DNA of 64,000 bases, from contig NC_035444.2 of NCBI RefSeq assembly GCF_002127325.2, forward strand, positions 40,227,379 to 40,291,378, in the 5' to 3' direction. The stretch comes from Helianthus annuus (taxonomy: Eukaryota > Streptophyta > Magnoliopsida > Asterales > Asteraceae). Positions 5,161 through 32,479 of the stretch are shown here, piece by piece; position 1 is the first letter of the stretch, and each line of letters starts with the position of its first letter. The notes beneath the pieces were generated by a model that saw only the letters and a program-made list of their open reading frames with translations, was not told where the DNA came from and ran no database searches. The translations under genes were made by a program, and so were the position numbers.

Positions 5161-5958
5161 GGTAGCAGGTGGTATGAGGGTGAATAAGTAAGTTATGAAT
5201 TGGGGGAAGTATTTTATTCTGGGAAAAGGATTGGAGTGAATTTGGATTATGATATTTTTAAGGAAGGAAGGAAGAATAATAATGGAAGACTAGAAAATTC
5301 AACGCGTTTTCAGGTTTGACGATTGCGGTTTGCGGATTGGAGACAGAGGTGAGATGATGAAATGTCTAACGAATTTTTTTTCTCCAAACTAATAATTCAT
5401 AAATGAAATTAACGGGTCTTCTCATCACTAACGGCCACTTCTTTCAACTATCCTATAGCTCTTTCTTTAATAACAAAATCATTCACTAAATCGCGCAAAG
5501 TTAAGATAAGGATTAAGGAATAGAGAGGCTGCTTCCAATGAAACTCCCAGTTTGATGGTAGTTTTGCATCAAATCTTGGACATAAGGCGCATAACATTCG
5601 ACAATTAAGACAAAGGCCAATTAGCGCATGTACGCTTTTTGTCTTTCGGCTATCAACGCCATCACTTAATGCATGATTAACCATCCGCTCTTTTAACATT
5701 ATTTTCACGAAAGTATTAAAATAACGTTAAAATTAATGCACTTTCACTTTTGTTCTCGAACGTCCACACATATATATAGTAAATAATTAAAAATGACTAA
5801 ACTTTCATTAAAAAATACATAAATTAGAAAACACCTAAATGAAATTAAAATATATACATAATTAAAATGGTACTTAACAAAATCTATTCATTGCGGATGG
5901 GTTCATCATCATCATCATTCTTCCCTCAAATCGATCTCAAAGAACCCTAACCATGTCT
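5161..5958. other. LYK copy 1 upstream region, then non-coding spacer
   Basis: About 5161-5340 is the promoter-proximal flank of the LYK gene and resembles 42096-42250 upstream of LYK copy 3 (shared GAAAATTCAA and ACAGGTTTGA-like blocks). About 5505-5545 carries GGAATAGAGAGGCTGCTTCC, a block that recurs at about 45950 and looks like a degenerate SINE fragment. From 5880 on, the sequence reads like the leader of the small ORF that the array interrupts. Confidence 0.5.
5954..5958. repeat. target-site duplication, left side of the array
   Basis: TGTCT immediately precedes the first LTR. The same five bases follow the last LTR at 32376-32380. Five base pairs is the usual LTR-retrotransposon target duplication. 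Confidence 0.85.
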
Positions 5959-5962
5959 TGTT

Positions 5963-5999
<37 letters not shown>

Positions 6000-6311
6000 C
6001 TTAATTATGTTAATATATGTTTAATTATTATATAGTTTAGTATGCAACGGTTGAGGGAACACAACCGTTCAAATGACAGTTGTTCCCTCCATCTATAACC
6101 GCCAAAATTTCTGCATATATATATGTAATGACCGACAACTTTTGTTGGCACCAAGACAATTATCATTCTTATGAATTGTCCACTTTTTCTTATGGTTTTT
6201 GCATACTCTGCTCTGTTATCATATACAAACATGAATATGCAATCCGATTCGAGTGATTACGTGAGAGATATGGGTATAATTTCCGCTGCGACGAACTCCG
6301 AAATTCTAACA
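5959..6311 (+). repeat. first LTR of the array (353 bp), reference copy
   Basis: Starts TGTTAGA followed by (TA)n and ends TCTAACA. From left to right it holds the (TA)n tract, four MYB-core motifs (6048-6101), a TATA tract (6116-6124), a 7-bp inverted repeat GACAATT/AATTGTC (6155-6161 and 6174-6180) whose loop contains the ATG of the unit ORF, and the first 47 codons of that ORF. Confidence 0.9.
6048..6124 (+). promoter_or_regulatory. predicted LTR promoter: four MYB-core motifs plus TATA tract
   Basis: Four matches to the MYB core CNGTTR lie within 54 bp: CGGTTG (6048-6053), its reverse complement CAACCG (6062-6067), CAGTTG (6077-6082) and TAACCG (6096-6101). They are followed by TATATATAT (6116-6124). 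A start site about 25-35 bp further on would fall just before the ORF ATG at 6171. The arrangement recurs in all LTRs; the copy at 30992-31330 has lost the fourth motif (TAACTG). Regulation by MYB factors is inferred by analogy with Tto1-type LTRs. Confidence 0.5.
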
Positions 6312-6980
6312 AGTGGTATCAGAGCCACGGTGGGAAATCGAAGAAAATCGATCGATGTTATACGATTCCGGGCACAACCGGATGAAGAACAAAACAGAGT
6401 GTACGGAGACGGAGACGAATTCAACCCCGATCGCACACGAATGTTTGCAAGAATGAAGCGAGAAACAATGCGATGCAAACACTGTTCGGATGAAATGAAT
6501 GAAAGACGAAGGAAGATGCGATTGGAACAAGATGTTCCAACAATGAATTACGTCTGCAAGAAGAACCGTGGAATAGCGAACGGAATCGATAAAGATTCCC
6601 AGAATTTAAAGAACGGACAAGTAAGTGTCCCAAGTTCCAGCCATGTAAGGGCTGAAGACGGTTATGATAAGGGCCGTAGTATTCACGCAGACGGGGAACA
6701 ATTCAAGAGTACCATACGGGGAAAAGATGAAATACCAAGCGTGAATTTCGCAACACGTGCAGATGACGAAGAAGACGTTCGATTGAAGAAGGTAATCAAA
6801 ACGAACTTTCCGGGTCTTACAATCGGTGATGACAGGCTGATGTATAAAGACGGTAGAAGGCAAACCAAACAACAGGTCAAACGAGCAAGGATAAAATTCA
6901 AAAGCGCCATGGTTCAGTTTATTAGGGGGATGAAACGAGCAAGGATGAATTACCTTCACAATCCTCATGCATGCTTCTAA
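6171..6980 (+). CDS. array unit 1 ORF, 269 aa, unknown protein (reference description)
   Basis: The ORF opens within the LTR (codons 1-47), crosses the LTR end and the primer-binding site without a stop, and closes 23 bp before the next LTR, so nearly the whole internal region is coding. The product is highly charged and basic, with a short hydrophobic N-terminus (about 4-18), one CKHC pair at 102-105, Arg/Lys-rich blocks (107-117) and a basic C-terminal third (229-257). I recognise no Gag CCHC knuckle, protease, integrase, reverse transcriptase or RNase H motif. It sits just downstream of the predicted LTR start site, so it would be the first ORF on an element transcript. It might be a diverged Gag-like packaging protein, or an ORF kept open only because the array is young. 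Unit 1 encodes the consensus protein. Confidence 0.6.
   Translation: MNCPLFLMVFAYSALLSYTNMNMQSDSSDYVRDMGIISAATNSEILTSGIRATVGNRRKSIDVIRFRAQPDEEQNRVYGDGDEFNPDRTRMFARMKRETMRCKHCSDEMNERRRKMRLEQDVPTMNYVCKKNRGIANGIDKDSQNLKNGQVSVPSSSHVRAEDGYDKGRSIHADGEQFKSTIRGKDEIPSVNFATRADDEEDVRLKKVIKTNFPGLTIGDDRLMYKDGRRQTKQQVKRARIKFKSAMVQFIRGMKRARMNYLHNPHACF
6314..6326 (+). other. primer-binding site (initiator-Met tRNA), first unit
   Basis: TGGTATCAGAGCC lies two bases after the LTR end. It is the standard plant PBS complementary to the 3' end of initiator-Met tRNA. The same site occurs 143 bp after the ORF ATG in every unit. In the ORF frame it encodes the stretch around S48-T53. Confidence 0.93.
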
Positions 6981-6988
6981 ACATAATT

Positions 6989-7003
6989 AAGTTTAGGGGG
7001 ATG
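6989..7003 (+). other. polypurine tract, first unit
   Basis: AAGTTTAGGGGGATG directly precedes the next LTR (TGTTAGA at 7004). This is the position and composition expected of the plus-strand primer. It is present before every internal LTR and before the last one. Confidence 0.85.
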
Positions 7004-7007
7004 TGTT

Positions 7008-7050
<43 letters not shown>

Positions 7051-7221
7051 CTTAATTATGTTAATATATGTTTAATTATTATATAGTTTAGTATGCAACG
7101 GTTGAGGGAACACAACCGTTCAAATGACAGTTGTTCCCTCCATCTATAACCGCCAAAATTTCTGCATATATATATGTAATGACCGACAACTTTTGTTGGC
7201 ACCAAGACAATTATCATTCTT

Positions 7222-8031
7222 ATGAATTGTCCACTTTTTCTTATGGTTTTTGCATACTATGCTCTGTTATCATATACAAACATGAATATGCAATCCGATT
7301 CGAGTGATTACGTGAGAGATATGGGTATAATTTCCGCTGCGACGAACTCCGAAATTCTAACAAGTGGTATCAGAGCCACGGTGGGAAATCGAAGAAAATC
7401 GATCGATGTTATACGATTCCGGGCACAACCGGATGAAGAACAAAACAGAGTGTACGGAGACGGAGACGAATTCAACCCCGATCGCACACGAATGTTTGCA
7501 AGAATGAAGCGAGAAACAATGCGATGCAAACACTGTTCGGATGAAATGAATGAAAGACGAAGGAAGATGCGATTGGAACAAGATGTTCCAACAATGAATT
7601 ACGTCTGCAAGAAGAACCGTGGAATAGCGAACGGAATCGATAAAGATTCCCAGAATTTAAAGAACGGACAAGTAAGTGTCCCAAGTTCCAGCCATGTAAG
7701 GGCTGAAGACGGTTATGATAAGGGCCGTAGTATTCACGCAGACGGGGAACAATTCAAGAGTACCATACGGGGAAAAGATGAAATACCAAGCGTGAATTTC
7801 GCAACACGTGCAGATGACGAAGAAGACGTTCGATTGAAGAAGGTAATCAAAACGAAATTTCCGGGTCTTACAATCGGTGATGACAGGCTGATGTATAAAG
7901 ACGGTAGAAGGCAAACCAAACAACAGGTCAAACGAGCAAGGATAAAATTCAAAAGCGCCATGGTTCAGTTTATTAGGGGGATGAAACGAGTAAGGATGAA
8001 TTACCTTCACAATCCTCATGCATGCTTCTAA
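7222..8031 (+). CDS. array unit 2 ORF, 269 aa (type C)
   Basis: Preceded by LTR 7004-7362. Differs from consensus at S13Y (unique to this unit), N212K and A257V. The N212K/A257V pair recurs only in units 14 and 17. Confidence 0.6.
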   Translation: MNCPLFLMVFAYYALLSYTNMNMQSDSSDYVRDMGIISAATNSEILTSGIRATVGNRRKSIDVIRFRAQPDEEQNRVYGDGDEFNPDRTRMFARMKRETMRCKHCSDEMNERRRKMRLEQDVPTMNYVCKKNRGIANGIDKDSQNLKNGQVSVPSSSHVRAEDGYDKGRSIHADGEQFKSTIRGKDEIPSVNFATRADDEEDVRLKKVIKTKFPGLTIGDDRLMYKDGRRQTKQQVKRARIKFKSAMVQFIRGMKRVRMNYLHNPHACF

Positions 8032-8258
8032 ACATAATTAAGTTTAGGGGGATGTGTTAGATATATATATATATATATATATATAATCTTAATTATGTTA
8101 ATATATGTTTAATTATTATATAGTTTAGTATGCAACGGTTGAGGGAACACAACCGTTCAAATGACAGTTGTTCCCTCCATCTATAACCGCCAAAATTTCT
8201 GCATATATATATGTAATGACCGACAACTTTTGTTGGCACCAAGACAATTATCATTCTT

Positions 8259-9068
8259 ATGAATTGTCCACTTTTTCTTATGGTTTTTGCATACTCTGCT
8301 CTGTTATCATATACAAACATGAATATGCAATCCGATTCGAGTGATTACGTGAGAGATATGGGTATAATTTCCGCTGCGACGAACTCCGAAATTCTAACAA
8401 GTGGTATCAGAGCCACGGTGGGAAATCGAAGAAAATCGATCGATGTTATACGATTCCGGGCACAACCGGATGAAGAACAAAACAGAGTGTACGGAGACGG
8501 AGACGAATTCAACCCCGATCGCACACGAATGTTTGCAAGAATGAAGCGAGAAACAATGCGATGCAAACACTGTTCGGATGAAATGAATGAAAGACGAAGG
8601 AAGATGCGATTGGAACAAGATGTTCCAACAATGAATTACGTCTGCAAGAAGAACCGTGGAATAGCGAACGGAATCGATAAAGATTCCCAGAATTTAAAGA
8701 ACGGACAAGTAAGTGTCCCAAGTTCCAGCCATGTAAGGGCTGAAGACGGTTATGATAAGGGCCGTAGTATTCACGCAGACGGGGAACAATTCAAGAGTAC
8801 CATACGGGGAAAAGATGAAATACCAAGCGTGAATTTCGCAACACGTGCAGATGACGAAGAAGACGTTCGATTGAAGAAGGTAATCAAAACAAACTTTCCG
8901 GGTCTTACAATCGGTGATGACAGGCTGATGTATAAAGACGGTAGAAGGCAAACTAAACAACAGGTCAAACGAGCAAGGATAAAATTCAAAAGCGCCATGG
9001 TTCAGTTTATTAGGGGGATGAAACGAGCAAGGATGAATTACCTTCACAATCCTCATGCATGCTTCTAA
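8259..9068 (+). CDS. array unit 3 ORF, 269 aa (type B)
   Basis: Preceded by LTR 8055-8399. The protein is consensus. It carries the silent ACG-to-ACA change at T211 that defines type B, plus a private silent change near codon 232 (ACC to ACT). Confidence 0.6.
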   Translation: MNCPLFLMVFAYSALLSYTNMNMQSDSSDYVRDMGIISAATNSEILTSGIRATVGNRRKSIDVIRFRAQPDEEQNRVYGDGDEFNPDRTRMFARMKRETMRCKHCSDEMNERRRKMRLEQDVPTMNYVCKKNRGIANGIDKDSQNLKNGQVSVPSSSHVRAEDGYDKGRSIHADGEQFKSTIRGKDEIPSVNFATRADDEEDVRLKKVIKTNFPGLTIGDDRLMYKDGRRQTKQQVKRARIKFKSAMVQFIRGMKRARMNYLHNPHACF

Positions 9069-9287
9069 ACATAATTAAGTTTAGGGGGATGTGTTAGATA
9101 TATATATATATATAATCTTAATTATGTTAATATATGTTTAATTATTATATAGTTTAGTATGCAACGGTTGAGGGAACACAACCGTTCAAATGACAGTTGT
9201 TCCCTCCATCTATAACCGCCAAAATTTCTGCATATATATATGTAATGACCGACAACTTTTGTTGGCACCAAGACAATTATCATTCTT

Positions 9288-10097
9288 ATGAATTGTCCAC
9301 TTTTTCTTATGGTTTTTGCATACTCTGCTCTGTTATCATATACAAACATGAATATGCAATCCGATTCGAGTGATTACGTGAGAGATATGGGTATAATTTC
9401 CGCTGCGACGAACTCCGAAATTCTAACAAGTGGTATCAGAGCCACGGTGGGAAATCGAAGAAAATCGTTCGATGTTATACGATTCCGGGCACAACCGGAT
9501 GAAGAACAAAACAGAGTGTACGGAGACGGAGACGAATTCAACCCCGATCGCACACGAATGTTTGCAAGAATGAAGCGAGAAACAATGCGATGCAAACACT
9601 GTTCGGATGAAATGAATGAAAGACGAAGGAAGATGCGATTGGAACAAGATGTTCCAACAATGAATTACGTCTGCAAGAAGAACCGTGGAATAGCGAACGA
9701 AATCGATAAAGATTCCCAGCATTTAAAGAACGGACAAGTAAGTGTCCCAAGTTCCAGCCATGTAAGGGCTGAAGACGGTTATGATAAGGGCCGTAGTATT
9801 CACGCAGACGGGGAACAATTCAAGAGTACCATACGGGGAAAAGATGAAATACCAAGCGTGAATTTCGCAACACGTGCAGATGACGAAGAAGACGTTCGAT
9901 TGAAGAAGGTAATCAAAACGAACTTTCCGGGTCTTACAATCGGTGATGACAGGCTGATGTATAAAGACGGTAGAAGGCAAACCAAACAACAGGTCAAACG
10001 AGCAAGGATAAAATTCAAAAGCGCCATGGTTCAGTTTATTAGGGGGATGAAACGAGCAAGGATGAATTACCTTCACAATCCTCATGCATGCTTCTAA
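9288..10097 (+). CDS. array unit 4 ORF, 269 aa (type D)
   Basis: Preceded by LTR 9092-9428. Carries I61F, G138E and N145H, the type D haplotype. Its tail before the polypurine tract reads ACACAATTAAG instead of ACATAATTAAG, an intermediate towards units 16 and 20. Confidence 0.6.
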   Translation: MNCPLFLMVFAYSALLSYTNMNMQSDSSDYVRDMGIISAATNSEILTSGIRATVGNRRKSFDVIRFRAQPDEEQNRVYGDGDEFNPDRTRMFARMKRETMRCKHCSDEMNERRRKMRLEQDVPTMNYVCKKNRGIANEIDKDSQHLKNGQVSVPSSSHVRAEDGYDKGRSIHADGEQFKSTIRGKDEIPSVNFATRADDEEDVRLKKVIKTNFPGLTIGDDRLMYKDGRRQTKQQVKRARIKFKSAMVQFIRGMKRARMNYLHNPHACF

Positions 10098-10124
10098 ACA
10101 CAATTAAGTTTAGGGGGATGTGTT

Positions 10125-10159
<35 letters not shown>

Positions 10160-10330
10160 CTTAATTATGTTAATATATGTTTAATTATTATATAGTTTAG
10201 TATGCAACGGTTGAGGGAACACAACCGTTCAAATGACAGTTGTTCCCTCCATCTATAACCGCCAAAATTTCTGCATATATATATGTAATGACCGACAACT
10301 TTTGTTGGCACCAAGACAATTATCATTCTT

Positions 10331-11140
10331 ATGAATTGTCCACTTTTTCTTATGGTTTTTGCATACTCTGCTCTGTTATCATATACAAACATGAACATGC
10401 AATCCGATTCGAGTGATTACGTGAGAGATATGGGTATAATTTCCGCTGCGACGAACTCCGAAATTCTAACAAGTGGTATCAGAGCCACGGTGGGAAATCG
10501 AAGAAAATCGATCGATGTTATACGATTCCGGGCACAACCGGATGAAGAACAAAACAGAGTGTACGGAGACGGAGACGAATTCAACCCCGATCGCACACGA
10601 ATGTTTGCAAGAATGAAGCGAGAAACAATGCGATGCAAACACTGTTCGGATGAAATGAATGAAAGACGAAGGAAGATGCGATTGGAACAAGATGTTCCAA
10701 CAATGAATTACGTCTGCAAGAAGAACCGTGGAATAGCGAACGGAATCGATAAAGATTCCCATAATTTAAAGAACGGACAAGTAAGTGTCCCAAGTTCCAG
10801 CCATGTAAGGGCTGAAGACGGTTATGATAAGGGCCGTAGTATTCACGCAGACGGGGAACAATTCAAGAGTATCATACGGGGAAAAGATGAAATACCAAGC
10901 GTGAATTTCGCAACACGTGCAGATGACGAAGAAGACGTTCGATTGAAGAAGGTAATCAAAACAAACTTTCCGGGTCTTACAATCGGTGATGACAGGCTGA
11001 TGTATAAAGACGGTAGAAGGCAAACCAAACAACAGGTCAAACGAGCAAGGATAAAATTCAAAAGCGCCATGGTTCAGTTTATTAGGGGGATGAAACGAGC
11101 AAGGATGAATTACCTTCACAATCCTCATGCATGCTTCTAA
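10331..11140 (+). CDS. array unit 5 ORF, 269 aa (type E)
   Basis: Preceded by LTR 10121-10471. Has Q144H, a silent AAT-to-AAC change in N22, the type B silent change at T211, and private T181I. Unit 21 shares the first three, and both units follow a type D unit. Confidence 0.6.
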   Translation: MNCPLFLMVFAYSALLSYTNMNMQSDSSDYVRDMGIISAATNSEILTSGIRATVGNRRKSIDVIRFRAQPDEEQNRVYGDGDEFNPDRTRMFARMKRETMRCKHCSDEMNERRRKMRLEQDVPTMNYVCKKNRGIANGIDKDSHNLKNGQVSVPSSSHVRAEDGYDKGRSIHADGEQFKSIIRGKDEIPSVNFATRADDEEDVRLKKVIKTNFPGLTIGDDRLMYKDGRRQTKQQVKRARIKFKSAMVQFIRGMKRARMNYLHNPHACF

Positions 11141-11363
11141 ACATAATTAAGTTTAGGGGGATGTGTTAGATATATATATATATATATATAATCTTAATTA
11201 TGTTAATATATGTTTAATTATTATATAGTTTAGTATGCAACGGTTGAGGGAACACAACCGTTCAAATGACAGTTGTTCCCTCCATCTATAACCGCCAAAA
11301 TTTCTGCATATATATATGTAATGACCGACAACTTTTGTTGGCACCAAGACAATTATCATTCTT

Positions 11364-12173
11364 ATGAATTGTCCACTTTTTCTTATGGTTTTTGCATACT
11401 CTGCTCTGTTATCATATACAAACATGAATATGCAATCCGATTCGAGTGATTACGTGAGAGATATGGGTATAATTTCCGCTGCGACGAACTCCGAAATTCT
11501 AACAAGTGGTATCAGAGCCACGGTGGGAAATCGAAGAAAATCGATCGATGTTATACGATTCCGGGCACAACCGGATGAAGAACAAAACAGAGTGTACGGA
11601 GACGGAGACGAATTCAACCCCGATCGCACACGAATGTTTGCAAGAATGAAGCGAGAAACAATGCGATGCAAACACTGTTCGGATGAAATGAATGAAAGAC
11701 GAAGGAAGATGCGATTGGAACAAGATGTTCCAACAATGAATTACGTCTGCAAGAAGAACCGTGGAATAGCGAACGGAATCGATAAAGATTCCCAGAATTT
11801 AAAGAACGGACAAGTAAGTGTCCCAAGTTCCAGCCATGTAAGGGCTGAAGACGGTTATGATAAGGGCCGTAGTATTCACGCAGACGGGGAACAATTCAAG
11901 AGTACCATACGGGGAAAAGATGAAATACCAAGCGTGAATTTCGCAACACGTGCAGATGACGAAGAAGACGTTCGATTGAAGAAGGTAATCAAAACAAACT
12001 TTCCGGGTCTTACAATCGGTGATGACAGGCTGATGTATAAAGACGGTAGAAGGCAAACCAAACAACAGGTCAAACGAGCAAGGATAAAATTCAAAAGCGC
12101 CATGGTTCAGTTTATTAGGGGGATGAAACGAGCAAGGATGAATTACCTTCACAATCCTCATGCATGCTTCTAA
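11364..12173 (+). CDS. array unit 6 ORF, 269 aa (type B)
   Basis: Preceded by LTR 11164-11504. Consensus protein with the type B silent change at T211. Confidence 0.6.
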   Translation: MNCPLFLMVFAYSALLSYTNMNMQSDSSDYVRDMGIISAATNSEILTSGIRATVGNRRKSIDVIRFRAQPDEEQNRVYGDGDEFNPDRTRMFARMKRETMRCKHCSDEMNERRRKMRLEQDVPTMNYVCKKNRGIANGIDKDSQNLKNGQVSVPSSSHVRAEDGYDKGRSIHADGEQFKSTIRGKDEIPSVNFATRADDEEDVRLKKVIKTNFPGLTIGDDRLMYKDGRRQTKQQVKRARIKFKSAMVQFIRGMKRARMNYLHNPHACF

Positions 12174-12394
12174 ACATAATTAAGTTTAGGGGGATGTGTT
12201 AGATATATATATATATATATAATCTTAATTATGTTAATATATGTTTAATTATTATATAGTTTAGTATGCAACGGTTGAGGGAACACAACCGTTCAAATGA
12301 CAGTTGTTCCCTCCATCTATAACCGCCAAAATTTCTGCATATATATATGTAATGACCGACAACTTTTGTTGGCACCAAGACAATTATCATTCTT

Positions 12395-13204
12395 ATGAAT
12401 TGTCCACTTTTTCTTATGGTTTTTGCATACTCTGCTCTGTTATCATATACAAACATGAATATGCAATCCGATTCGAGTGATTACGTGAGAGATATGGGTA
12501 TAATTTCCGCTGCGACGAACTCCGAAATTCTAACAAGTGGTATCAGAGCCACGGTGGGAAATCGAAGAAAATCGATCGATGTTATACGATTCCGGGCACA
12601 ACCGGATGAAGAACAAAACAGAGTGTACGGAGACGGAGACGAATTCAACCCCGATCGCACACGAATGTTTGCAAGAATGAAGCGAGAAACAATGCGATGC
12701 AAACACTGTTCGGATGAAATGAATGAAAGACGAAGGAAGATGCGATTGGAACAAGATGTTCCAACAATGAATTACGTCTGCAAGAAGAACCGTGGAATAG
12801 CGAACGGAATCGATAAAGATTCCCAGAATTTAAAGAACGGACAAGTAAGTGTCCCAAGTTCCAGCCATGTAAGGGCTGAAGACGGTTATGATAAGGGCCG
12901 TAGTATTCACGCAGACGGGGAACAATTCAAGAGTACCATACGGGGAAAAGATGAAATACCAAGCGTGAATTTCGCAACACGTGCAGATGACGAAGAAGAC
13001 GTTCGATTGAAGAAGGTAATCAAAACGAACTTTCCGGGTCTTACAATCGGTGATGACAGGCTGATGTATAAAGACGGTAGAAGGCAAACCAAACAACAGG
13101 TCAAACGAGCAAGGATAAAATTCAAAAGCGCCATGGTTCAGTTTATTAGGGGGATGAAACGAGCAAGGATGAATTACCTTCACAATCCTCATGCATACTT
13201 CTAA
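12395..13204 (+). CDS. array unit 7 ORF, 269 aa (type A)
   Basis: Preceded by LTR 12197-12535. Only C268Y separates it from consensus. Confidence 0.6.
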   Translation: MNCPLFLMVFAYSALLSYTNMNMQSDSSDYVRDMGIISAATNSEILTSGIRATVGNRRKSIDVIRFRAQPDEEQNRVYGDGDEFNPDRTRMFARMKRETMRCKHCSDEMNERRRKMRLEQDVPTMNYVCKKNRGIANGIDKDSQNLKNGQVSVPSSSHVRAEDGYDKGRSIHADGEQFKSTIRGKDEIPSVNFATRADDEEDVRLKKVIKTNFPGLTIGDDRLMYKDGRRQTKQQVKRARIKFKSAMVQFIRGMKRARMNYLHNPHAYF

Positions 13205-13231
13205 ACATAATTAAGTTTAGGGGGATGTGTT

Positions 13232-13268
<37 letters not shown>

Positions 13269-13438
13269 CTTAATTATGTTAATATATGTTTAATTATTAC
13301 ATAGTTTAGTATGCAACGGTTGAGGGAACACAACCGTTCAAATGACAGTTGTTCCCTCCATCTATAACCGCCAAAATTTTGCATATATATATGTAATGAC
13401 CGACAACTTTTGTTGGCACCAAGACAATTATCATTCTT

Positions 13439-14248
13439 ATGAATTGTCCACTTTTTCTTATGGTTTTTGCATACTCTGCTCTGTTATCATATACAAACAT
13501 GAATATGCAATCCGATTCGAGTGATTACGTGAGAGATATGGGTATAATTTCCGCTGCGACGAACTCCGAAATTCTAACAAGTGGTATCAGAGCCACGGTG
13601 GGAAATCGAAGAAAATCGATCGATGTTATACGATTCCGGGCACAACCGGATGAAGAACAAAACAGAGTGTACGGAGACGGAGACGAATTCAACCCCGATC
13701 GCACACGAATGTTTGCAAGAATGAAGCGAGAAACAATGCGATGCAAACACTGTTCGGATGAAATGAATGAAAGACGAAGGAAGATGCGATTGGAACAAGA
13801 TGTTCCAACAATGAATTACGTCTGCAAGAAGAACCGTGGAATAGCGAACGGAATCGATAAAGATTCCCAGAATTTAAAGAACGGACAAGTAAGTGTCCCA
13901 AGTTCCAGCCATGTAAGGGCTGAAGACGGTTATGATAAGGGCCGTAGTATTCACGCAGACGGGGAACAATTCAAGAGTACCATACGGGGAAAAGATGAAA
14001 TACCAAGCGTGAATTTCGCAACACGTGCAGATGACGAAGAAGACGTTCGATTGAAGAAGGTAATCAAAACGAACTTTCCGGGTCTTACAATCGGTGATGA
14101 CAGGCTGATGTATAAAGACGGTAGAAGGCAAACCAAACAACAGGTCAAACGAGCAAGGATAAAATTCAAAAGCGCCATGGTTCAGTTTATTAGGGGGATG
14201 AAACGAGCAAGGATGAATTACCTTCACAATCCTCATGCATGCTTCTAA
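13439..14248 (+). CDS. array unit 8 ORF, 269 aa (type A)
   Basis: Preceded by LTR 13228-13579, which has lost one base upstream of the TATA tract (AAAATTTTGC for AAAATTTCTGC) and has TATTACATAG for TATTATATAG. The protein is consensus. Confidence 0.6.
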   Translation: MNCPLFLMVFAYSALLSYTNMNMQSDSSDYVRDMGIISAATNSEILTSGIRATVGNRRKSIDVIRFRAQPDEEQNRVYGDGDEFNPDRTRMFARMKRETMRCKHCSDEMNERRRKMRLEQDVPTMNYVCKKNRGIANGIDKDSQNLKNGQVSVPSSSHVRAEDGYDKGRSIHADGEQFKSTIRGKDEIPSVNFATRADDEEDVRLKKVIKTNFPGLTIGDDRLMYKDGRRQTKQQVKRARIKFKSAMVQFIRGMKRARMNYLHNPHACF

Positions 14249-22550: not shown

Positions 22551-22577
22551 ACACAACTAAGTTTAGGGGGATGTGTT

Positions 22578-22634
<57 letters not shown>

Positions 22635-22805: not shown

Positions 22806-23615
22806 ATGAATTGTCCACTTTTTCTTATGGTTTTTGCATACTCTGCTCTGTTATCATATACAAACATGAATATGCAATCCGATTCGAGTGATTACGTGAG
22901 AGATATGGGTATAATTTCCGCTGCGACGAACTCCGAAATTCTAACAAGTGGTATCAGAGCCACGGTGGGAAATCGAAGAAAATCGATCGATGTTATACGA
23001 TTCCGGGCACAACCGGATGAAGAACAAAACAGAGTGTACGGAGACGGAGACGAATTCAACCCCGATCGCACACGAATGTTTGCAAGAATGAAGCGAGAAA
23101 CAATGCGATGCAAACACTGTTCGGATGAAATGAATGAAAGACGAAGGAAGATGCGATTGGAACAAGATGTTCCAACAATGAATTACGTCTGCAAGAAGAA
23201 CCGTGGAATAGCGAACGGAATCGATAAAGATTCCCAGAATTTAAAGAACGGACAAGTAAGTGTCCCAAGTTCCAGCCATGTAAGGGCTGAAGACGGTTAT
23301 GATAAGGGCCGTAGTATTCACGCAGACGGGGAACAATTCAAGAGTACCATACGGGGAAAAGATGAAATACCAAGCGTGAATTTCGCAACACGTGCAGATG
23401 ACGAAGAAGACGTTCGATTGAAGAAGGTAATCAAAACGAAATTTCCGGGTCTTACAATCGGTGATGACAGGCTGATGTATAAAGACGGTAGAAGGCAAAC
23501 CAAACAACAGGTCAAACGAGCAAGGATAAAATTCAAAAGCGCCATGGTTCAGTTTATTAGGGGGATGAAACGAGTAAGGATGAATTACCTTCACAATCCT
23601 CATGCATGCTTCTAA
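22806..23615 (+). CDS. array unit 17 ORF, 269 aa (type C)
   Basis: Preceded by the long LTR 22574-22946 (373 bp). N212K and A257V. Opens a C-B-B-D' block (17-20). Confidence 0.6.
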   Translation: MNCPLFLMVFAYSALLSYTNMNMQSDSSDYVRDMGIISAATNSEILTSGIRATVGNRRKSIDVIRFRAQPDEEQNRVYGDGDEFNPDRTRMFARMKRETMRCKHCSDEMNERRRKMRLEQDVPTMNYVCKKNRGIANGIDKDSQNLKNGQVSVPSSSHVRAEDGYDKGRSIHADGEQFKSTIRGKDEIPSVNFATRADDEEDVRLKKVIKTKFPGLTIGDDRLMYKDGRRQTKQQVKRARIKFKSAMVQFIRGMKRVRMNYLHNPHACF

Positions 23616-23842
23616 ACATAATTAAGTTTAGGGGGATGTGTTAGATATATATATATATATATATATATAATCTTAATTATGTTAATATATGTTTAATTAT
23701 TATATAGTTTAGTATGCAACGGTTGAGGGAACACAACCGTTCAAATGACAGTTGTTCCCTCCATCTATAACCGCCAAAATTTCTGCATATATATATGTAA
23801 TGACCGACAACTTTTGTTGGCACCAAGACAATTATCATTCTT

Positions 23843-24652
23843 ATGAATTGTCCACTTTTTCTTATGGTTTTTGCATACTCTGCTCTGTTATCATATACAA
23901 ACATGAATATGCAATCCGATTCGAGTGATTACGTGAGAGATATGGGTATAATTTCCGCTGCGACGAACTCCGAAATTCTAACAAGTGGTATCAGAGCCAC
24001 GGTGGGAAATCGAAGAAAATCGATCGATGTTATACGATTCCGGGCACAACCGGATGAAGAACAAAACAGAGTGTACGGAGACGGAGACGAATTCAACCCC
24101 GATCGCACACGAATGTTTGCAAGAATGAAGCGAGAAACAATGCGATGCAAACACTGTTCGGATGAAATGAATGAAAGACGAAGGAAGATGCGATTGGAAC
24201 AAGATGTTCCAACAATGAATTACGTCTGCAAGAAGAACCGTGGAATAGCGAACGGAATCGATAAAGATTCCCAGAATTTAAAGAACGGACAAGTAAGTGT
24301 CCCAAGTTCCAGCCATGTAAGGGCTGAAGACGGTTATGATAAGGGCCGTAGTATTCACGCAGACGGGGAACAATTCAAGAGTACCATACGGGGAAAAGAT
24401 GAAATACCAAGCGTGAATTTCGCAACACGTGCAGATGACGAAGAAGACGTTCGATTGAAGAAGGTAATCAAAACAAACTTTCCGGGTCTTACAATCGGTG
24501 ATGACAGGCTGATGTATAAAGACGGTAGAAGGCAAACCAAACAACAGGTCAAACGAGCAAGGATAAAATTCAAAAGCGCCATGGTTCAGTTTATTAGGGG
24601 GATGAAACGAGCAAGGATGAATTACCTTCACAATCCTCATGCATGCTTCTAA
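23843..24652 (+). CDS. array unit 18 ORF, 269 aa (type B)
   Basis: Preceded by LTR 23639-23983. Consensus protein with the type B silent change. Unit 19 next to it is also type B, suggesting a single-unit duplication. Confidence 0.6.
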   Translation: MNCPLFLMVFAYSALLSYTNMNMQSDSSDYVRDMGIISAATNSEILTSGIRATVGNRRKSIDVIRFRAQPDEEQNRVYGDGDEFNPDRTRMFARMKRETMRCKHCSDEMNERRRKMRLEQDVPTMNYVCKKNRGIANGIDKDSQNLKNGQVSVPSSSHVRAEDGYDKGRSIHADGEQFKSTIRGKDEIPSVNFATRADDEEDVRLKKVIKTNFPGLTIGDDRLMYKDGRRQTKQQVKRARIKFKSAMVQFIRGMKRARMNYLHNPHACF

Positions 24653-24873
24653 ACATAATTAAGTTTAGGGGGATGTGTTAGATATATATATATATATATA
24701 ATCTTAATTATGTTAATATATGTTTAATTATTATATAGTTTAGTATGCAACGGTTGAGGGAACACAACCGTTCAAATGACAGTTGTTCCCTCCATCTATA
24801 ACCGCCAAAATTTCTGCATATATATATGTAATGACCGACAACTTTTGTTGGCACCAAGACAATTATCATTCTT

Positions 24874-25683
24874 ATGAATTGTCCACTTTTTCTTATGGTT
24901 TTTGCATACTCTGCTCTGTTATCATATACAAACATGAATATGCAATCCGATTCGAGTGATTACGTGAGAGATATGGGTATAATTTCCGCTGCGACGAACT
25001 CCGAAATTCTAACAAGTGGTATCAGAGCCACGGTGGGAAATCGAAGAAAATCGATCGATGTTATACGATTCCGGGCACAACCGGATGAAGAACAAAACAG
25101 AGTGTACGGAGACGGAGACGAATTCAACCCCGATCGCACACGAATGTTTGCAAGAATGAAGCGAGAAACAATGCGATGCAAACACTGTTCGGATGAAATG
25201 AATGAAAGACGAAGGAAGATGCGATTGGAACAAGATGTTCCAACAATGAATTACGTCTGCAAGAAGAACCGTGGAATAGCGAACGGAATCGATAAAGATT
25301 CCCAGAATTTAAAGAACGGACAAGTAAGTGTCCCAAGTTCCAGCCATGTAAGGGCTGAAGACGGTTATGATAAGGGCCGTAGTATTCACGCAGACGGGGA
25401 ACAATTCAAGAGTACCATACGGGGAAAAGATGAAATACCAAGCGTGAATTTCGCAACACGTGCAGATGACGAAGAAGACGTTCGATTGAAGAAGGTAATC
25501 AAAACAAACTTTCCGGGTCTTACAATCGGTGATGACAGGCTGATGTATAAAGACGGTAGAAGGCAAACCAAACAACAGGTCAAACGAGCAAGGATAAAAT
25601 TCAAAAGCGCCATGGTTCAGTTTATTAGGGGGATGAAACGAGCAAGGATGAATTACCTTCACAATCCTCATGCATGCTTCTAA
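24874..25683 (+). CDS. array unit 19 ORF, 269 aa (type B)
   Basis: Preceded by LTR 24676-25014. Same haplotype as unit 18. Confidence 0.6.
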   Translation: MNCPLFLMVFAYSALLSYTNMNMQSDSSDYVRDMGIISAATNSEILTSGIRATVGNRRKSIDVIRFRAQPDEEQNRVYGDGDEFNPDRTRMFARMKRETMRCKHCSDEMNERRRKMRLEQDVPTMNYVCKKNRGIANGIDKDSQNLKNGQVSVPSSSHVRAEDGYDKGRSIHADGEQFKSTIRGKDEIPSVNFATRADDEEDVRLKKVIKTNFPGLTIGDDRLMYKDGRRQTKQQVKRARIKFKSAMVQFIRGMKRARMNYLHNPHACF

Positions 25684-25910
25684 ACATAATTAAGTTTAGG
25701 GGGATGTGTTAGATATATATATATATATATATATATAATCTTAATTATGTTAATATATGTTTAATTATTATATAGTTTAGTATGCAACGGTTGAGGGAAC
25801 ACAACCGTTCAAATGACAGTTGTTCCCTCCATCTATAACCGCCAAAATTTCTGCATATATATATGTAATGACCGACAACTTTTGTTGGCACCAAGACAAT
25901 TATCATTCTT

Positions 25911-26720
25911 ATGAATTGTCCACTTTTTCTTATGGTTTTTGCATACTCTGCTCTGTTATCATATACAAACATGAATATGCAATCCGATTCGAGTGATTAC
26001 GTGAGAGATATGGGTATAATTTCCGCTGCGACGAACTCCGAAATTCTAACAAGTGGTATCAGAGCCACGGTGGGAAATCGAAGAAAATCGTTCGATGTTA
26101 TACGATTCCGGGCACAACCGGATGAAGAACAAAACAGAGTGTACGGAGACGGAGACGAATTCAACCCCGATCGCACACGAATGTTTGCAAGAATGAAGCG
26201 AGAAACAATGCGATGCAAACACTGTTCGGATGAAATGAATGAAAGACGAAGGAAGATGCGATTGGAACAAGATGTTCCAACAATGAATTACGTCTGCAAG
26301 AAGAACCGTGGAATAGCGAACGAAATCGATAAAGATTCCCAGCATTTAAAGAACGGACAAGTAAGTGTCCCAAGTTCCAGCCATGTAAGGGCTGAAGACG
26401 GTTATGATAAGGGCCGTAGTATTCACGCAGACGGGGAACAATTCAAGAGTACCATACGGGGAAAAGATGAAATACCAAGCGTGAATTTCGCAACACGTGC
26501 AGATGACGAAGAAGACGTTCGATTGAAGAAGGTAATCAAAACGAACTTTCCGGGTCTTATAATCGGTGATGACAGGCTGATGTATAAAGACGGTAGAAGG
26601 CAAACCAAACAACAGGTCAAACGAGCAAGGATAAAATTCAAAAGCGCCATGGTTCAGTTTATTAGGGGGATGAAACGAGCAAGGATGAATTACCTTCACA
26701 ATCCTCATGCATGCTTCTAA
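25911..26720 (+). CDS. array unit 20 ORF, 269 aa (type D')
   Basis: Preceded by LTR 25707-26051. Same protein as unit 16 (I61F, G138E, N145H, T217I) and the same ACACAACTAAG tail. Followed by a 377-bp LTR with expanded (TA)n. Confidence 0.6.
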   Translation: MNCPLFLMVFAYSALLSYTNMNMQSDSSDYVRDMGIISAATNSEILTSGIRATVGNRRKSFDVIRFRAQPDEEQNRVYGDGDEFNPDRTRMFARMKRETMRCKHCSDEMNERRRKMRLEQDVPTMNYVCKKNRGIANEIDKDSQHLKNGQVSVPSSSHVRAEDGYDKGRSIHADGEQFKSTIRGKDEIPSVNFATRADDEEDVRLKKVIKTNFPGLIIGDDRLMYKDGRRQTKQQVKRARIKFKSAMVQFIRGMKRARMNYLHNPHACF

Positions 26721-26747
26721 ACACAACTAAGTTTAGGGGGATGTGTT

Positions 26748-26808
<61 letters not shown>

Positions 26809-26979
26809 CTTAATTATGTTAATATATGTTTAATTATTATATAGTTTAGTATGCAACGGTTGAGGGAACACAACCGTTCAAATGACAGTTGTTCCCTCCA
26901 TCTATAACCGCCAAAATTTCTGCATATATATATGTAATGACCGACAACTTTTGTTGGCACCAAGACAATTATCATTCTT

Positions 26980-27789
26980 ATGAATTGTCCACTTTTTCTT
27001 ATGGTTTTTGCATACTCTGCTCTGTTATCATATACAAACATGAACATGCAATCCGATTCGAGTGATTACGTGAGAGATATGGGTATAATTTCCGCTGCGA
27101 CGAACTCCGAAATTCTAACAAGTGGTATCAGAGCCACGGTGGGAAATCGAAGAAAATCGATCGATGTTATACGATTCCGGGCACAACCGGATGAAGAACA
27201 AAACAGAGTGTACGGAGACGGAGACGAATTCAACCCCGATCGCACACGAATGTTTGCAAGAATGAAGCGAGAAACAATGCGATGCAAACACTGTTCGGAT
27301 GAAATGAATGAAAGACGAAGGAAGATGCGATTGGAACAAGATGTTCCAACAATGAATTACGTCTGCAAGAAGAACCGTGGAATAGCGAACGGAATCGATA
27401 AAGATTCCCATAATTTAAAGAACGGACAAGTAAGTGTCCCAAGTTCCAGCCATGTAAGGGCTGAAGACGGTTATGATAAGGGCCGTAGTATTCACGCAGA
27501 CGGGGAACAATTCAAGAGTACCATACGGGGAAAAGATGAAATACCAAGCGTGAATTTCGCAACACGTGCAGATGACGAAGAAGACGTTCGATTGAAGAAG
27601 GTAATCAAAACAAACTTTCCGGGTCTTACAATCGGTGATGACAGGCTGATGTATAAAGACGGTAGAAGGCAAACCAAACAACAGGTCAAACGAGCAAGGA
27701 TAAAATTCAAAAGCGCCATGGTTCAGTTTATTAGGGGGATGAAACGAGCAAGGATGAATTACCTTCACAATCCTCATGCATGCTTCTAA
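26980..27789 (+). CDS. array unit 21 ORF, 269 aa (type E)
   Basis: Preceded by LTR 26744-27120. Q144H plus the silent N22 change. It lacks the T181I of unit 5. Confidence 0.6.
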   Translation: MNCPLFLMVFAYSALLSYTNMNMQSDSSDYVRDMGIISAATNSEILTSGIRATVGNRRKSIDVIRFRAQPDEEQNRVYGDGDEFNPDRTRMFARMKRETMRCKHCSDEMNERRRKMRLEQDVPTMNYVCKKNRGIANGIDKDSHNLKNGQVSVPSSSHVRAEDGYDKGRSIHADGEQFKSTIRGKDEIPSVNFATRADDEEDVRLKKVIKTNFPGLTIGDDRLMYKDGRRQTKQQVKRARIKFKSAMVQFIRGMKRARMNYLHNPHACF

Positions 27790-28008
27790 ACATAATTAAG
27801 TTTAGGGGGATGTGTTAGATATATATATATATATAATCTTAATTATGTTAATATATGTTTAATTATTATATAGTTTAGTATGCAATGGTTGAGGGAACAC
27901 AACCGTTCAAATGACAGTTGTTCCCTCCATCTATAACCGCCAAAATTTCTGCATATATATATGTAATGACCGACAACTTTTGTTGGCACCAAGACAATTA
28001 TCATTCTT

Positions 28009-28818
28009 ATGAATTGTCCACTTTTTCTTATGGTTTTTGCATACTCTGCTCTGTTATCATATACAAACATGAATATGCAATCCGATTCGAGTGATTACGT
28101 GAGAGATATGGGTATAATTTCCGCTGCGACGAACTCCGAAATTCTAACAAGTGGTATCAGAGCCACGGTGGGAAATCGAAGAAAATCGATCGATGTTATA
28201 CGATTCCGGGCACAACCGGATGAAGAACAAAACAGAGTGTACGGAGACGGAGACGAATTCAACCCCGATCGCACACGAATGTTTGCAAGAATGAAGCGAG
28301 AAACAATGCGATGCAAACACTGTTCGGATGAAATGAATGAAAGACGAAGGAAGATGCGATTGGAACAAGATGTTCCAACAATGAATTACGTCTGCAAGAA
28401 GAACCGTGGAATAGCGAACGGAATCGATAAAGATTCCCAGAATTTAAAGAACGAACAAGTAAGTGTCCCAAGTTCCAGCCATGTAAGGGCTGAAGACGGT
28501 TATGATAAGGGCCGTAGTATTCACGCAGACGGGGAACAATTCAAGAGTACCATACGGGGAAAAGATGAAATACCAAGCGTGAATTTCGCAACACGTGCAG
28601 ATGACGAAGAAGACGTTCGATTGAAGAAGGTAATCAAAACGAACTTTCCGGGTCTTACAATCGGTGATGACAGGCTGATGTATAAAGACGGTAGAAGGCA
28701 AACAAAACAACAGGTCAAACGAGCAAGGATAAAATTCAAAAGCGCCATGGTTCAGTTTATTAGGGGGATGAAACGAGCAAGGATGAATTACCTTCACAAT
28801 CCTCATGCATGCTTCTAA
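28009..28818 (+). CDS. array unit 22 ORF, 269 aa (type A)
   Basis: Preceded by LTR 27813-28149, which has the CAATGG variant otherwise seen only before unit 10. The unit has private G149E and the silent change shared with unit 9, so it combines markers of units 9 and 10. Confidence 0.6.
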   Translation: MNCPLFLMVFAYSALLSYTNMNMQSDSSDYVRDMGIISAATNSEILTSGIRATVGNRRKSIDVIRFRAQPDEEQNRVYGDGDEFNPDRTRMFARMKRETMRCKHCSDEMNERRRKMRLEQDVPTMNYVCKKNRGIANGIDKDSQNLKNEQVSVPSSSHVRAEDGYDKGRSIHADGEQFKSTIRGKDEIPSVNFATRADDEEDVRLKKVIKTNFPGLTIGDDRLMYKDGRRQTKQQVKRARIKFKSAMVQFIRGMKRARMNYLHNPHACF

Positions 28819-28851
28819 ACATAATTAAGTTTAGGGGGATGTGTTAGATAT

Positions 28852-28912
<61 letters not shown>

Positions 28913-29083
28913 CTTAATTATGTTAATATATGTTTAATTATTATATAGTTTAGTATGCAACGGTTGAGGGAACACAACCGTTCAAATGACAGTTGTTCCC
29001 TCCATCTATAACCGCCAAAATTTCTGCATATATATATGTAATGACCGACAACTTTTGTTGGCACCAAGACAATTATCATTCTT

Positions 29084-29893
29084 ATGAATTGTCCACTTTT
29101 TCTTATGGTTTTTGCATACTCTGCTCTGTTATCATATACAAACATGAATATGCAATCCGATTCGAGTGATTACGTGAGAGATATGGGTATAATTTCCGCT
29201 GCGACGAACTCCGAAATTCTAACAAGTGGTATCAGAGCCACGGTGGGAAATCGAAGAAAATCGATCGATGTTATACGATTCCGGGCACAACCGGATGAAG
29301 AACAAAACAGAGTGTACGGAGACGGAGACGAATTCAACCCCGATCGCACACGAATGTTTGCAAGAATGAAGCGAGAAACAATGCGATGCAAACACTGTTC
29401 GGATGAAATGAATGAAAGACGAAGGAAGATGCGATTGGAACAAGATGTTCCAACAATGAATTACGTCTGCAAGAAGAACCGTGGAATAGCGAACGGAATC
29501 GATAAAGATTCCCAGAATTTAAAGAACGGACAAGTAAGTATCCCAAGTTCCAGCCATGTAAGGGCTGAAGACGGTTATGATAAGGGCCGTAGTATTCACG
29601 CAGACGGGGAACAATTCAAGAGTACCATACGGGGAAAAGATGAAATACCAAGCGTGAATTTCGCAACACGTGCAGATGACGAAGAAGACGTACGATTGAA
29701 GAAGGTAATCAAAACGAACTTTCCGGGTCTTACAATCGGTGATGACAGGCTGATGTATAAAGACGGTAGAAGGCAAACCAAACAACAGGTCAAACGAGCA
29801 AGGATAAAATTCAAAAGCGCCATGGTTCAGTTTATTAGGGGGATGAAACGAGCAAGGATGAATTACCTTCACAATCCTCATGCATGCTTCTAA
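29084..29893 (+). CDS. array unit 23 ORF, 269 aa (type A)
   Basis: Preceded by LTR 28842-29224 (383 bp, with an interrupted TAGATATA start to its (TA)n tract). Private V153I and a silent change at V203. Confidence 0.6.
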   Translation: MNCPLFLMVFAYSALLSYTNMNMQSDSSDYVRDMGIISAATNSEILTSGIRATVGNRRKSIDVIRFRAQPDEEQNRVYGDGDEFNPDRTRMFARMKRETMRCKHCSDEMNERRRKMRLEQDVPTMNYVCKKNRGIANGIDKDSQNLKNGQVSIPSSSHVRAEDGYDKGRSIHADGEQFKSTIRGKDEIPSVNFATRADDEEDVRLKKVIKTNFPGLTIGDDRLMYKDGRRQTKQQVKRARIKFKSAMVQFIRGMKRARMNYLHNPHACF

Positions 29894-29920
29894 ACATAAT
29901 TAAGTTTAGGGGGATGTGTT

Positions 29921-29987
<67 letters not shown>

Positions 29988-30158
29988 CTTAATTATGTTA
30001 ATATATGTTTAATTATTATATAGTTTAGTATGCAACGGTTGAGGGAACACAACCGTTCAAATGACAGTTGTTCCCTCCATCTATAACCGCCAAAATTTCT
30101 GCATATATATATGTAATGACCGACAACTTTTGTTGGCACCAAGACAATTATCATTCTT

Positions 30159-30968
30159 ATGAATTGTCCACTTTTTCTTATTGTTTTTGCATACTCTGCT
30201 CTGTTATCATATACAAACATGAATATGCAATCCGATTCGAGTGATTACGTGAGAGATATGGGTATAATTTCCGCTGCGACGAACTCCGAAATTCTAACAA
30301 GTGGTATCAGAGCCACGGTGGGAAATCGAAGAAAATCGATCGATGTTATACGATTCCGGGCACAACCGGATGAAGAACAAAACAGAGTGTACGGAGACGG
30401 AGACGAATTCAACCCCGATCGCACACGAATGTTTGCAAGAATGAAGCGAGAAACAATGCGATGCAAACACTGTTCGGATGAAATGAATGAAAGACGAAGG
30501 AAGATGCGATTGGAACAAGATGTTCCAACAATGAATTACGTCTGCAAGAAGAACCGTGGAATAGCGAACGGAATCGATAAAGATTCCCAGAATTTAAAGA
30601 ACGGACAAGTAAGTGTCCCAAGTTCCAGCCATGTAAGGGCTGAAGACGGTTATGATAAGGGCCGTAGTATTCACGCAGACGGGGAACAATTCAAGAGTAC
30701 CATACGGGGAAAAGATGAAATACCAAGCGTGAATTTCGCAACACGTGCAGATGACGAAGAAGGCGTTCGATTGAACAAGGTAATCAAAACGAACTTTCCG
30801 GGTCTTACAATCGGTGATGACAGGCTGATGTATAAAGACGGTAGAAGGCAAACCAAACAACAGGTCAAACGAGCAAGGATAAAATTCAAAAGCGCCATGG
30901 TTCAGTTTATTAGGGGGATGAAACGAGCAAGGATGAATTACCTTCACAATCCTCATGCATGCTTCTAA
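30159..30968 (+). CDS. array unit 24 ORF, 269 aa (type A, most diverged protein)
   Basis: Preceded by LTR 29917-30299 (383 bp, the longest with its neighbour). Private M8I, D202G and K206N, yet still fully open. Confidence 0.6.
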   Translation: MNCPLFLIVFAYSALLSYTNMNMQSDSSDYVRDMGIISAATNSEILTSGIRATVGNRRKSIDVIRFRAQPDEEQNRVYGDGDEFNPDRTRMFARMKRETMRCKHCSDEMNERRRKMRLEQDVPTMNYVCKKNRGIANGIDKDSQNLKNGQVSVPSSSHVRAEDGYDKGRSIHADGEQFKSTIRGKDEIPSVNFATRADDEEGVRLNKVIKTNFPGLTIGDDRLMYKDGRRQTKQQVKRARIKFKSAMVQFIRGMKRARMNYLHNPHACF

Positions 30969-31189
30969 ACATAATTAAGTTTAGGGGGATGTGTTAGATA
31001 TATATATATATATATAATCTCAATTATGTTAATATATGTTTAATTATTATATAGTTTAGTATGCAACGGTTGAGGGAACACAACCGTTCAAATGACAGTT
31101 GTTCCCTCCATCTGTAACTGCCAAAATTTCTGCATATATATATGTAATGACCGACAACTTTTGTTGGCACCAAGACAATTATCATTCTT

Positions 31190-31999
31190 ATGAATTGTCC
31201 ACTTTTTCTTATGGTTTTTGCATACTCTGCTCTGTTATCATATACAAACATGAATATGCAATCCGATTCGAGTGATTACGTGAGAGATATGGGTATAATT
31301 TCCGCTGCGACGAACTCCGAAATTCTAACAAGTGGTATCAGAGCCACGGTGGGAAATCGAAGAAAATCGATCGATGTTATACGATTCCGGGCACAACCGG
31401 ATGAAGAACAAAACAGAGTGTACGGAGACGGAGACGAATTCAACCCCGATCGCACACGAATGTTTGCAAGAATGAAGCGAGAAACAATGCGATGCAAACA
31501 CTGTTCGGATGAAATGAATGAAAGACGAAGGAAGATGCGATTGGAACAAGATGTTCCAACAATGAATTACGTCTGCAAGAAGAACCGTGGAATAGCGAAC
31601 GGAATCGATAAAGATTCCCAGAATTTAAAGAACGGACAAGTAAGTGTCCCAAGTTCCAGCCATGTAAGGGCTGAAGACGGTTATGATAAGGGCCGTAGTA
31701 TTCACGCAGACGGGGAACAATTCAAGAGTACCATACGGGGAAAAGATGAAATACCAAGCGTGAATTTCGCAACACGTGCAGATGACGAAGAAGACGTTCG
31801 ATTGAAGAAGGTAATCAAAACGAACTTTCCGGGTCTTACAATCGGTGATGACAGGCTGATGTATAAAGACGGTAGAAGGCAAACCAAACAACAGGTCAAA
31901 CGAGCAAGGATAAAATTCAAAAGCGCCATGGTTCAGTTTATTAGGGGGATGAAACGAGCAAGGATGAATTACCTTCACAATCCTCATGCATGCTTCTAA
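31190..31999 (+). CDS. array unit 25 ORF, 269 aa (type A, last unit)
   Basis: Preceded by LTR 30992-31330, which has three private substitutions (AATCTCAATT, CATCTGTAACTG). The protein is consensus. Confidence 0.6.
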   Translation: MNCPLFLMVFAYSALLSYTNMNMQSDSSDYVRDMGIISAATNSEILTSGIRATVGNRRKSIDVIRFRAQPDEEQNRVYGDGDEFNPDRTRMFARMKRETMRCKHCSDEMNERRRKMRLEQDVPTMNYVCKKNRGIANGIDKDSQNLKNGQVSVPSSSHVRAEDGYDKGRSIHADGEQFKSTIRGKDEIPSVNFATRADDEEDVRLKKVIKTNFPGLTIGDDRLMYKDGRRQTKQQVKRARIKFKSAMVQFIRGMKRARMNYLHNPHACF

Positions 32000-32022
32000 A
32001 CATAATTAAGTTTAGGGGGATG

Positions 32023-32026
32023 TGTT

Positions 32027-32063
<37 letters not shown>

Positions 32064-32375
32064 CTTAATTATGTTAATATATGTTTAATTATTATATAGT
32101 TTAGTATGCAACGGTTGAGGGAACACAACCGTTCAAATGACAGTTGTTCCCTCCATCTATAACCGCCAAAATTTCTGCATATATATATGTAATGACCGAC
32201 AACTTTTGTTGGCACCAAGACAATTATCATTCTTATGAATTGTCCACTTTTTCATATGGTTTTTGCATACTCTGCTCTGTTATCATATACAAACATGAAT
32301 ATGCAATCCGATTCGAGTGATTACGTGAGAGATATGGGTATAATTTCCGCTGCGACGAACTCCGAAATTCTAAAA
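32023..32375 (+). repeat. last LTR of the array (353 bp), altered 3' terminus
   Basis: Runs from TGTTAGA to TCTAAAA, so the terminal CA is now AA. One base in the ORF-start region differs (TTCATATGG for TTCTTATGG). No internal region follows; the target duplication TGTCT (32376-32380) and host sequence do. Confidence 0.88.
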
Positions 32376-32479
32376 TGTCTGCAACTTCATCATCAACAAC
32401 TTTGAAATTACTGGCGGATTGAATGTTGTATGCTTGTGTGGTGTTCATACTTGCTTTCATCCTATCATATCCTTATTAG
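32375..32479 (+). pseudogene. small ORF interrupted at its start codon by the array
   Basis: The terminal A of the last LTR plus the TG of the target duplication recreate an ATG. From there the frame reads MSATSSSTTLKLLAD, a TGA (32420-32422), then MLYACVVFILAFILSYPY and a TAG (32477-32479). Together this is a plausible 34-residue protein with a hydrophobic C-terminal segment. The TGA would be a broken Trp codon. On the left of the array the same ATG-TCT stands at 5953-5958 behind leader-like sequence. I do not recognise the protein. Confidence 0.35.

Follow-up and report, generated by a model that had tools for sequence, protein, structure and literature searches.

A 26-kb shared-LTR array of one small sunflower retrotransposon, with ordered variants pointing to growth by exchange of multi-unit blocks

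How does one long terminal repeat (LTR) retrotransposon come to stand as a row of units that share their LTRs? Such tandem elements are common in plants. A locus of the sunflower, Helianthus annuus, is a test case in which growth by unequal exchange can be weighed against the integration of a concatemer: in a window of 64,000 nucleotides (the whole stretch of DNA analysed; contig NC_035444.2, positions 40,227,379 to 40,291,378), a small LTR retrotransposon is repeated over 26 kb, and as this array is long and little diverged, its mutations still order the duplications. The array of 25 units, as assembled, most probably goes back, judging by the sequence, to one insertion that was enlarged by successive rounds of unequal recombination, and its variants point to unequal exchange of multi-unit blocks, leading to a partial trimeric higher-order repeat.

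The original prediction, made from the letters of the sequence, described 25 internal regions alternating with 26 LTRs in a single orientation, a primer-binding site (PBS) and a polypurine tract (PPT) kept in every unit, and the target duplication TGTCT on the outer sides only. All of this is confirmed by the following features.

5959..32375, + strand, 26,417 bp: tandem array in which 25 internal regions stand between 26 LTRs
5954..5958, no strand: left target-site duplication (TSD), TGTCT
32376..32380, no strand: right TSD, TGTCT
5959..6311, + strand: LTR01, the first LTR, AT run aside without substitution relative to the majority
6312..7003, + strand: internal region I01, 692 bp, with a 222-codon open frame and no Pfam match
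6314..6325, + strand: first PBS motif, TGGTATCAGAGC, present in 25 of 25 units
6989..7003, + strand: first PPT motif, AAGTTTAGGGGGATG, present in 25 of 25 units
32023..32375, + strand: LTR26, the last LTR, with two private substitutions, one of them within the terminal CA

The units are arranged head to tail, every LTR and internal region being on the + strand, and each of the 24 inner LTRs abuts a PPT motif on its left and a PBS motif on its right, both motifs being exact throughout. The internal regions are all 692 bp long, start with AGTGGTATCAGAGC and end with AAGTTTAGGGGGATG (25/25). The LTRs start with TGTTAGA (26/26) and end with TCTAACA (25/26), LTR26 ending with TCTAAAA after one substitution in the terminal CA. 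They measure 337-383 bp, the variation coming mostly from their AT run (16-62 bp); the LTR without this run, hereafter the body, is 315 bp long in 25 of the 26 and 314 bp long in LTR08. Both ends of the array are complete LTRs, no unit is truncated, and TGTCT, found at both outer flanks, does not occur within the array. In the 64-kb window there is neither a second copy of the unit (the one hit of blastn at E up to 1 is 17 bp long, E 0.44) nor an empty site. Pairwise, the internals differ by 0.47% on average and by 1.3% at most, 20 of the 300 pairs being identical. The array was thus rightly called homogeneous on average, but its copies sort into ordered haplotype classes, and it is therefore not a uniform concatemer.

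The internals carry 11 variants shared by at least two units and 8 private ones, and the LTR bodies 2 shared and 9 private, with 59 unit-variant occurrences (46 in internals and 13 in LTR bodies). Sorted by their commonest variants into classes O, A, B and C, the 25 internals read O ABC BB OOOO ABC ABC ABBC B OOOO. B follows A in 4/4 cases and precedes C in 4/4 (permutation p 6e-5, post hoc), and A-B and B-C neighbours add up to 8 pairs versus 2.56 expected (p 9e-5). There are no A-A or C-C neighbours, which indicates that copying proceeded by blocks and not unit by unit. The blocks and the other segments of interest are listed below.

7004..11163, + strand: block 1, classes A-B-C-B', units 2-5, each counted with its 5' LTR
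16342..19452, + strand: block 2, classes A-B-C, units 11-13, without 629T and 673C
19453..22573, + strand: block 3, classes A-B-C, units 14-16
22574..27812, + strand: block 4, classes A-B-B-C-B', units 17-21
10121..11163, + strand: LTR05 (body 240 T>C) and I05 (291 G>T), standing after a class C unit
26744..27812, + strand: LTR21 and I21, with the same trio as LTR05-I05 (240C, 291T, class C before)
13580..28149, + strand: core without private substitution (AT runs uncounted), from I08 to LTR22, 14 internals and 14 LTRs

Variants 629T (units 2, 14 and 17) and 673C (units 4, 16 and 20) occur in the same three of the four blocks, 2-3 units apart. Likewise, 240C is restricted to LTR05 and LTR21, 16 units apart, and the only two internals with 291T are those that follow them; the recurrence of this trio by chance is about 7e-5. 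The ordered A-B-C, 629T/673C and LTR05/LTR21 patterns all indicate that several adjoining units were duplicated together. The private variants are also unevenly distributed. The core, I08-I21 with LTR09-LTR22, has none over 14.1 kb without AT runs (p 4e-5), and 11 of the 17 stand at the right end. The tests used 16 of them, a column filter having hidden body position 6 of LTR25, and 10 of these 16 fall in the eight segments at the end of the array (p 9e-4). None of the counts includes the interruption of the AT run in LTR23.

Two models were simulated, with 62 mutations placed for the 59 occurrences counted. When all units were integrated at once and then mutated independently (500 runs), shared sites never exceeded 5, versus 13 observed, and a run of 14 units free of private variants was never obtained. 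The growth model included copying and loss of units, runs being accepted on similar variant numbers (8 settings, 150 accepted runs each). The simulated order test was unable to tell single-unit from block growth; the absence of A-A and C-C neighbours is what tells them apart. Of the two origins that the original prediction had left open, repeated recombination of one insertion is thus supported by the ordered multi-unit shared blocks and the uneven private variants, and the single outer TSD, the complete end LTRs and the lack of truncated units also favour it. Growth in place is accordingly preferred, and the integration of a full concatemer in one step is disfavoured.

Several results nevertheless weigh against such growth. 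Even in the growth model, the 14-unit private-free run was obtained in just 0-19% of accepted runs per setting, and at least 10 private changes in four neighbouring units in just 4-14%; the core and the right end are thus extreme under this model too, perhaps owing to a recent burst of block copying. None of 12 lags shows an excess of equal AT-run lengths, exact-haplotype k-mer tests are not significant (p 0.17 and 1.0), and neither are most of the shared-variant tests (12 lags, uncorrected; p 0.07 at lag 3 and higher at the others, lag 12 standing apart with p 0.04). In addition, the order and scan tests were designed post hoc, the data having already been seen. Finally, 52C>T is common to LTR10 (15309-15649) and LTR22 (27813-28149), and 555A internals flank these LTRs on opposite sides (I09 before LTR10, I22 after LTR22), a distribution for which simple block copying does not account; as the variant affects a CpG, gene conversion or recurrent mutation could be involved. 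The AT-run lengths count nominally in favour of growth at lags 3, 6 and 7 out of 12, where they differ little (p 0.03-0.04, uncorrected); a period-4 pattern in LTR lengths, first seen by eye, is not significant (lag 4, p 0.20).

The alternative that survives best is that an oligomer of 2 to several units, made as complementary DNA (cDNA) or derived from a circle, integrated whole and was then enlarged by exchange. Such an oligomer could be supplied by template switching or by transcripts that read through tandem copies, and multi-unit transcripts have been reported for Cassandra elements (PMC7215508). Both routes have been proposed for tandem LTR elements and were called not (necessarily) mutually exclusive (PMC11899658, PMC7215508). 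A single TSD fits the integration of an oligomer equally well, but an oligomeric start explains nothing beyond what a monomeric start does, and in its extreme form, with all 25 units integrated in one step, it is contradicted by the ordered shared variants and the private-free core. We thus regard a short oligomeric start as rather unlikely.

An assembly artefact, in which the assembler would have inflated or collapsed the number of units, is a good deal less likely still. A stretch of 26 kb made of almost identical 1-kb units is difficult to assemble, AT runs are prone to error, and units 14, 15 and 16 match the single-nucleotide polymorphisms (SNPs) of units 17, 18 and 20. A false duplication would, however, copy AT-run lengths and SNPs exactly, whereas these lengths differ between adjacent blocks (34, 26 and 22 before units 14-16; 52, 24, 18 and 24 before units 17-20) and SNPs differ between some blocks (units 11-13 versus 14-16). 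A collapse, the true number of units being higher, is easier to imagine than an inflation. Many independent insertions of the same family, nested or side by side, are scarcely conceivable, since the junctions refute them (TGTCT absent inside, shared LTRs, direct PPT-LTR-PBS joins) and nothing was found in their support.

Under growth from a single insertion, we infer the following course. An element of about 1.4 kb with two LTRs would have inserted once, as a monomer, duplicating TGTCT. Unequal exchange between its LTRs, most simply on sister chromatids, would then have produced three LTRs and two internals, and later unequal exchange in a 1-kb register, often of blocks of three to five units, would have led to 25 units. 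The private mutations that survive lie chiefly at the right edge, and the core, which would have been copied recently, carries the partial A-B-C trimeric higher-order repeat. Leaving the AT run aside, the first and last LTRs differ at 2 of 315 positions, which, with a substitution rate of 1.3e-8 per site per year, dates the insertion to roughly 0.24 million years ago; this age is only rough, as exchange between LTRs can reset divergence. "A retrotransposon turning into a satellite", as the locus was first described, is a fair description. Satellite DNA consists of long tandem arrays under concerted evolution, and the locus, with 25 units over 26 kb and block-wise copying, would be a candidate for it.

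What kind of element has grown in this way? LTR retrotransposons are defined by TG...CA LTRs with short inverted ends, a PBS, a PPT and a 4-6 bp TSD. The repeated element has such LTR ends, with one end substitution in the last LTR, as well as a PBS, a PPT and the TGTCT duplication, and more than two LTRs share internals inside one outer TSD, as in tandem LTR retrotransposons and tandemly arrayed terminal-repeat retrotransposons in miniature (TA-TRIMs). Its PBS motif, TGGTATCAGAGC, has been described as a PBS complementary to a transfer RNA (PMC7215508). For Gao and colleagues, a TRIM is shorter than 1,500 bp, lacks any retrotransposon protein (BLASTX was used) and has separate copies with different target duplications (PMC4717578). 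The two-LTR form measures 353+692+353 = 1398 bp, below their limit. The elements of the original TRIM description are reportedly smaller. As judged by Pfam scans of unit 1, there is no protein either: no match was found for the long + frame at E up to 1, for its internal part at E up to 10, or for five minus-strand open frames at E up to 10; the two other + frames of the internal are broken by 15-17 stops each. A protein-coding element was rejected on these scans, and the sequence fits a small non-autonomous LTR retrotransposon, TRIM-like by its size and lack of protein.

The long frame is open for 222 codons in 25/25 units (6312-6977 in unit 1), a length beyond chance expectation, reached by 4 of 3000 dinucleotide shuffles of I01. 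Its variants across the array, 13 non-synonymous and 4 synonymous, are few and give no sign of coding constraint, and as the units are recent copies, its being open in all of them is not independent evidence of coding. It is perhaps a gag remnant.

Two known families were considered and rejected. Cassandra is recognised by two 5S-like boxes, A and C, which lie 18 nt from each other in the LTR. Within the LTR body of 315 bp, the closest approach to box A is at position 37, with 1 mismatch, and that to box C at position 235, with 4 mismatches, too distant to form such a pair; no Rfam family, 5S included, reaches its gathering score in the window. Retrozymes have a hammerhead ribozyme in the LTR and a 4-bp TSD; here the TSD is 5 bp, and no hammerhead family was detected at E up to 10 in 5900-8200 (two units) or at gathering score in the window. 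In that two-unit stretch, the search at E up to 10 gave three hits to unrelated families, all of them at chance level.

Rows of units sharing LTRs are an already known kind of structure, of which the array is a long example whose growth can still be read from its variants. That TRIM tandems of this type are known in plants, as originally stated, is borne out by TA-TRIMs, found in 35/43 plant genomes (PMC4717578), and by Cassandra arrays. TA-TRIMs such as maize Zma-SMART and Wukong also show alternating LTRs and internals, shared LTRs, PBS, PPT and outer TSDs, without protein and with a single element below 1,500 bp (PMC4717578, PMC4528315). The forms described in the passages cited mostly have 3 LTRs and 2 internals, or 5 and 4 in maize (PMC4717578), and Wukong up to 7 LTRs (PMC4528315), compared with 26 and 25 here. 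Cassandra arrays are likewise near-identical and LTR-sharing, with the same PBS motif, but their LTRs carry 5S boxes A and C, a spaced pair not found here, and those detected by polymerase chain reaction (PCR) reach at least 12 units and about 6 kb (PMC7215508), compared with 25 units and 26 kb. Tandem LTR elements of rice, Arabidopsis, almond and cotton also have a single TSD and shared LTRs and are attributed to one insertion; those of rice are mostly Gypsy elements with protein-coding regions, and the two loci detailed have two units each (PMC11899658). Maize CRM1TR and CRM4TR are retrotransposon-derived tandem repeats with local homogenisation and haplotype sets, as here, but their monomers are parts of the LTR and untranslated region (UTR) instead of complete LTR-internal units (PMC3648361). 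Outside plants, bivalve biv-TRIM arrays share terminal repeats and reach 58 repeats and 57 internals per locus, the longest, of 16.6 kb, having fewer bases but more units than ours (PMC6934838), and cestode TRIM tandems have been ascribed to unequal crossing over (PMC4558846). The literature matches listed include neither a 25-unit plant array of a TRIM-like element nor a higher-order repeat inside such an array, which is weak evidence that none exists, as subscription papers lie mostly outside these matches. The array had been called unusual; among these matches this holds for plants, but not generally, given the bivalve locus.

The start of the array lies 799 bp from the presumed start codon of a - strand gene, on its upstream side; this gene is the first of the following.

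1940..5289, - strand: LysM receptor-kinase gene (LYK4/5-type; LysM and kinase domains, Pfam)
33787..34266, - strand: kinase fragment
39988..42245, - strand: second LysM receptor-kinase gene (LYK4/5-type)

These two genes and the fragment are a local duplication. Positions 33311-34210, including the fragment, are 97.7% identical to 39520-40411. An element with a Plant_tran/DDE transposase frame, with ends GGGTG...CACCC and TAA duplications on both sides, occupies 37656-39519; the duplicated copy near 33311 lacks it and represents a paralogous empty site. Elsewhere in the window, there are a foldback at 667-1060 (77% match to its own reverse complement), a cluster of diverged direct repeats, 70-90% identical, at 47799-48822, a reading frame at 35799-36605 resembling by eye a Copia RNase H fragment (a Pfam scan at E up to 1 gave nothing), and one at 62694-63999 judged by eye to be a Gypsy integrase-like fragment.

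Finally, the chances seem about even that a young single insertion beside a receptor-kinase gene has by now turned into a satellite in which a trimeric higher-order repeat is emerging, and that its order of variants records multi-unit unequal exchange after integration. The mechanism by which tandem LTR elements form was left open by both the rice (PMC11899658) and the Cassandra (PMC7215508) studies, and this satellite reading, if true, would bear directly on the question as left by the former. The array would then show an early step on the way from a mobile element to a satellite, close upstream of a LysM receptor-kinase gene (0.8 kb, counted from its presumed start codon), where the number of units could vary among plants.

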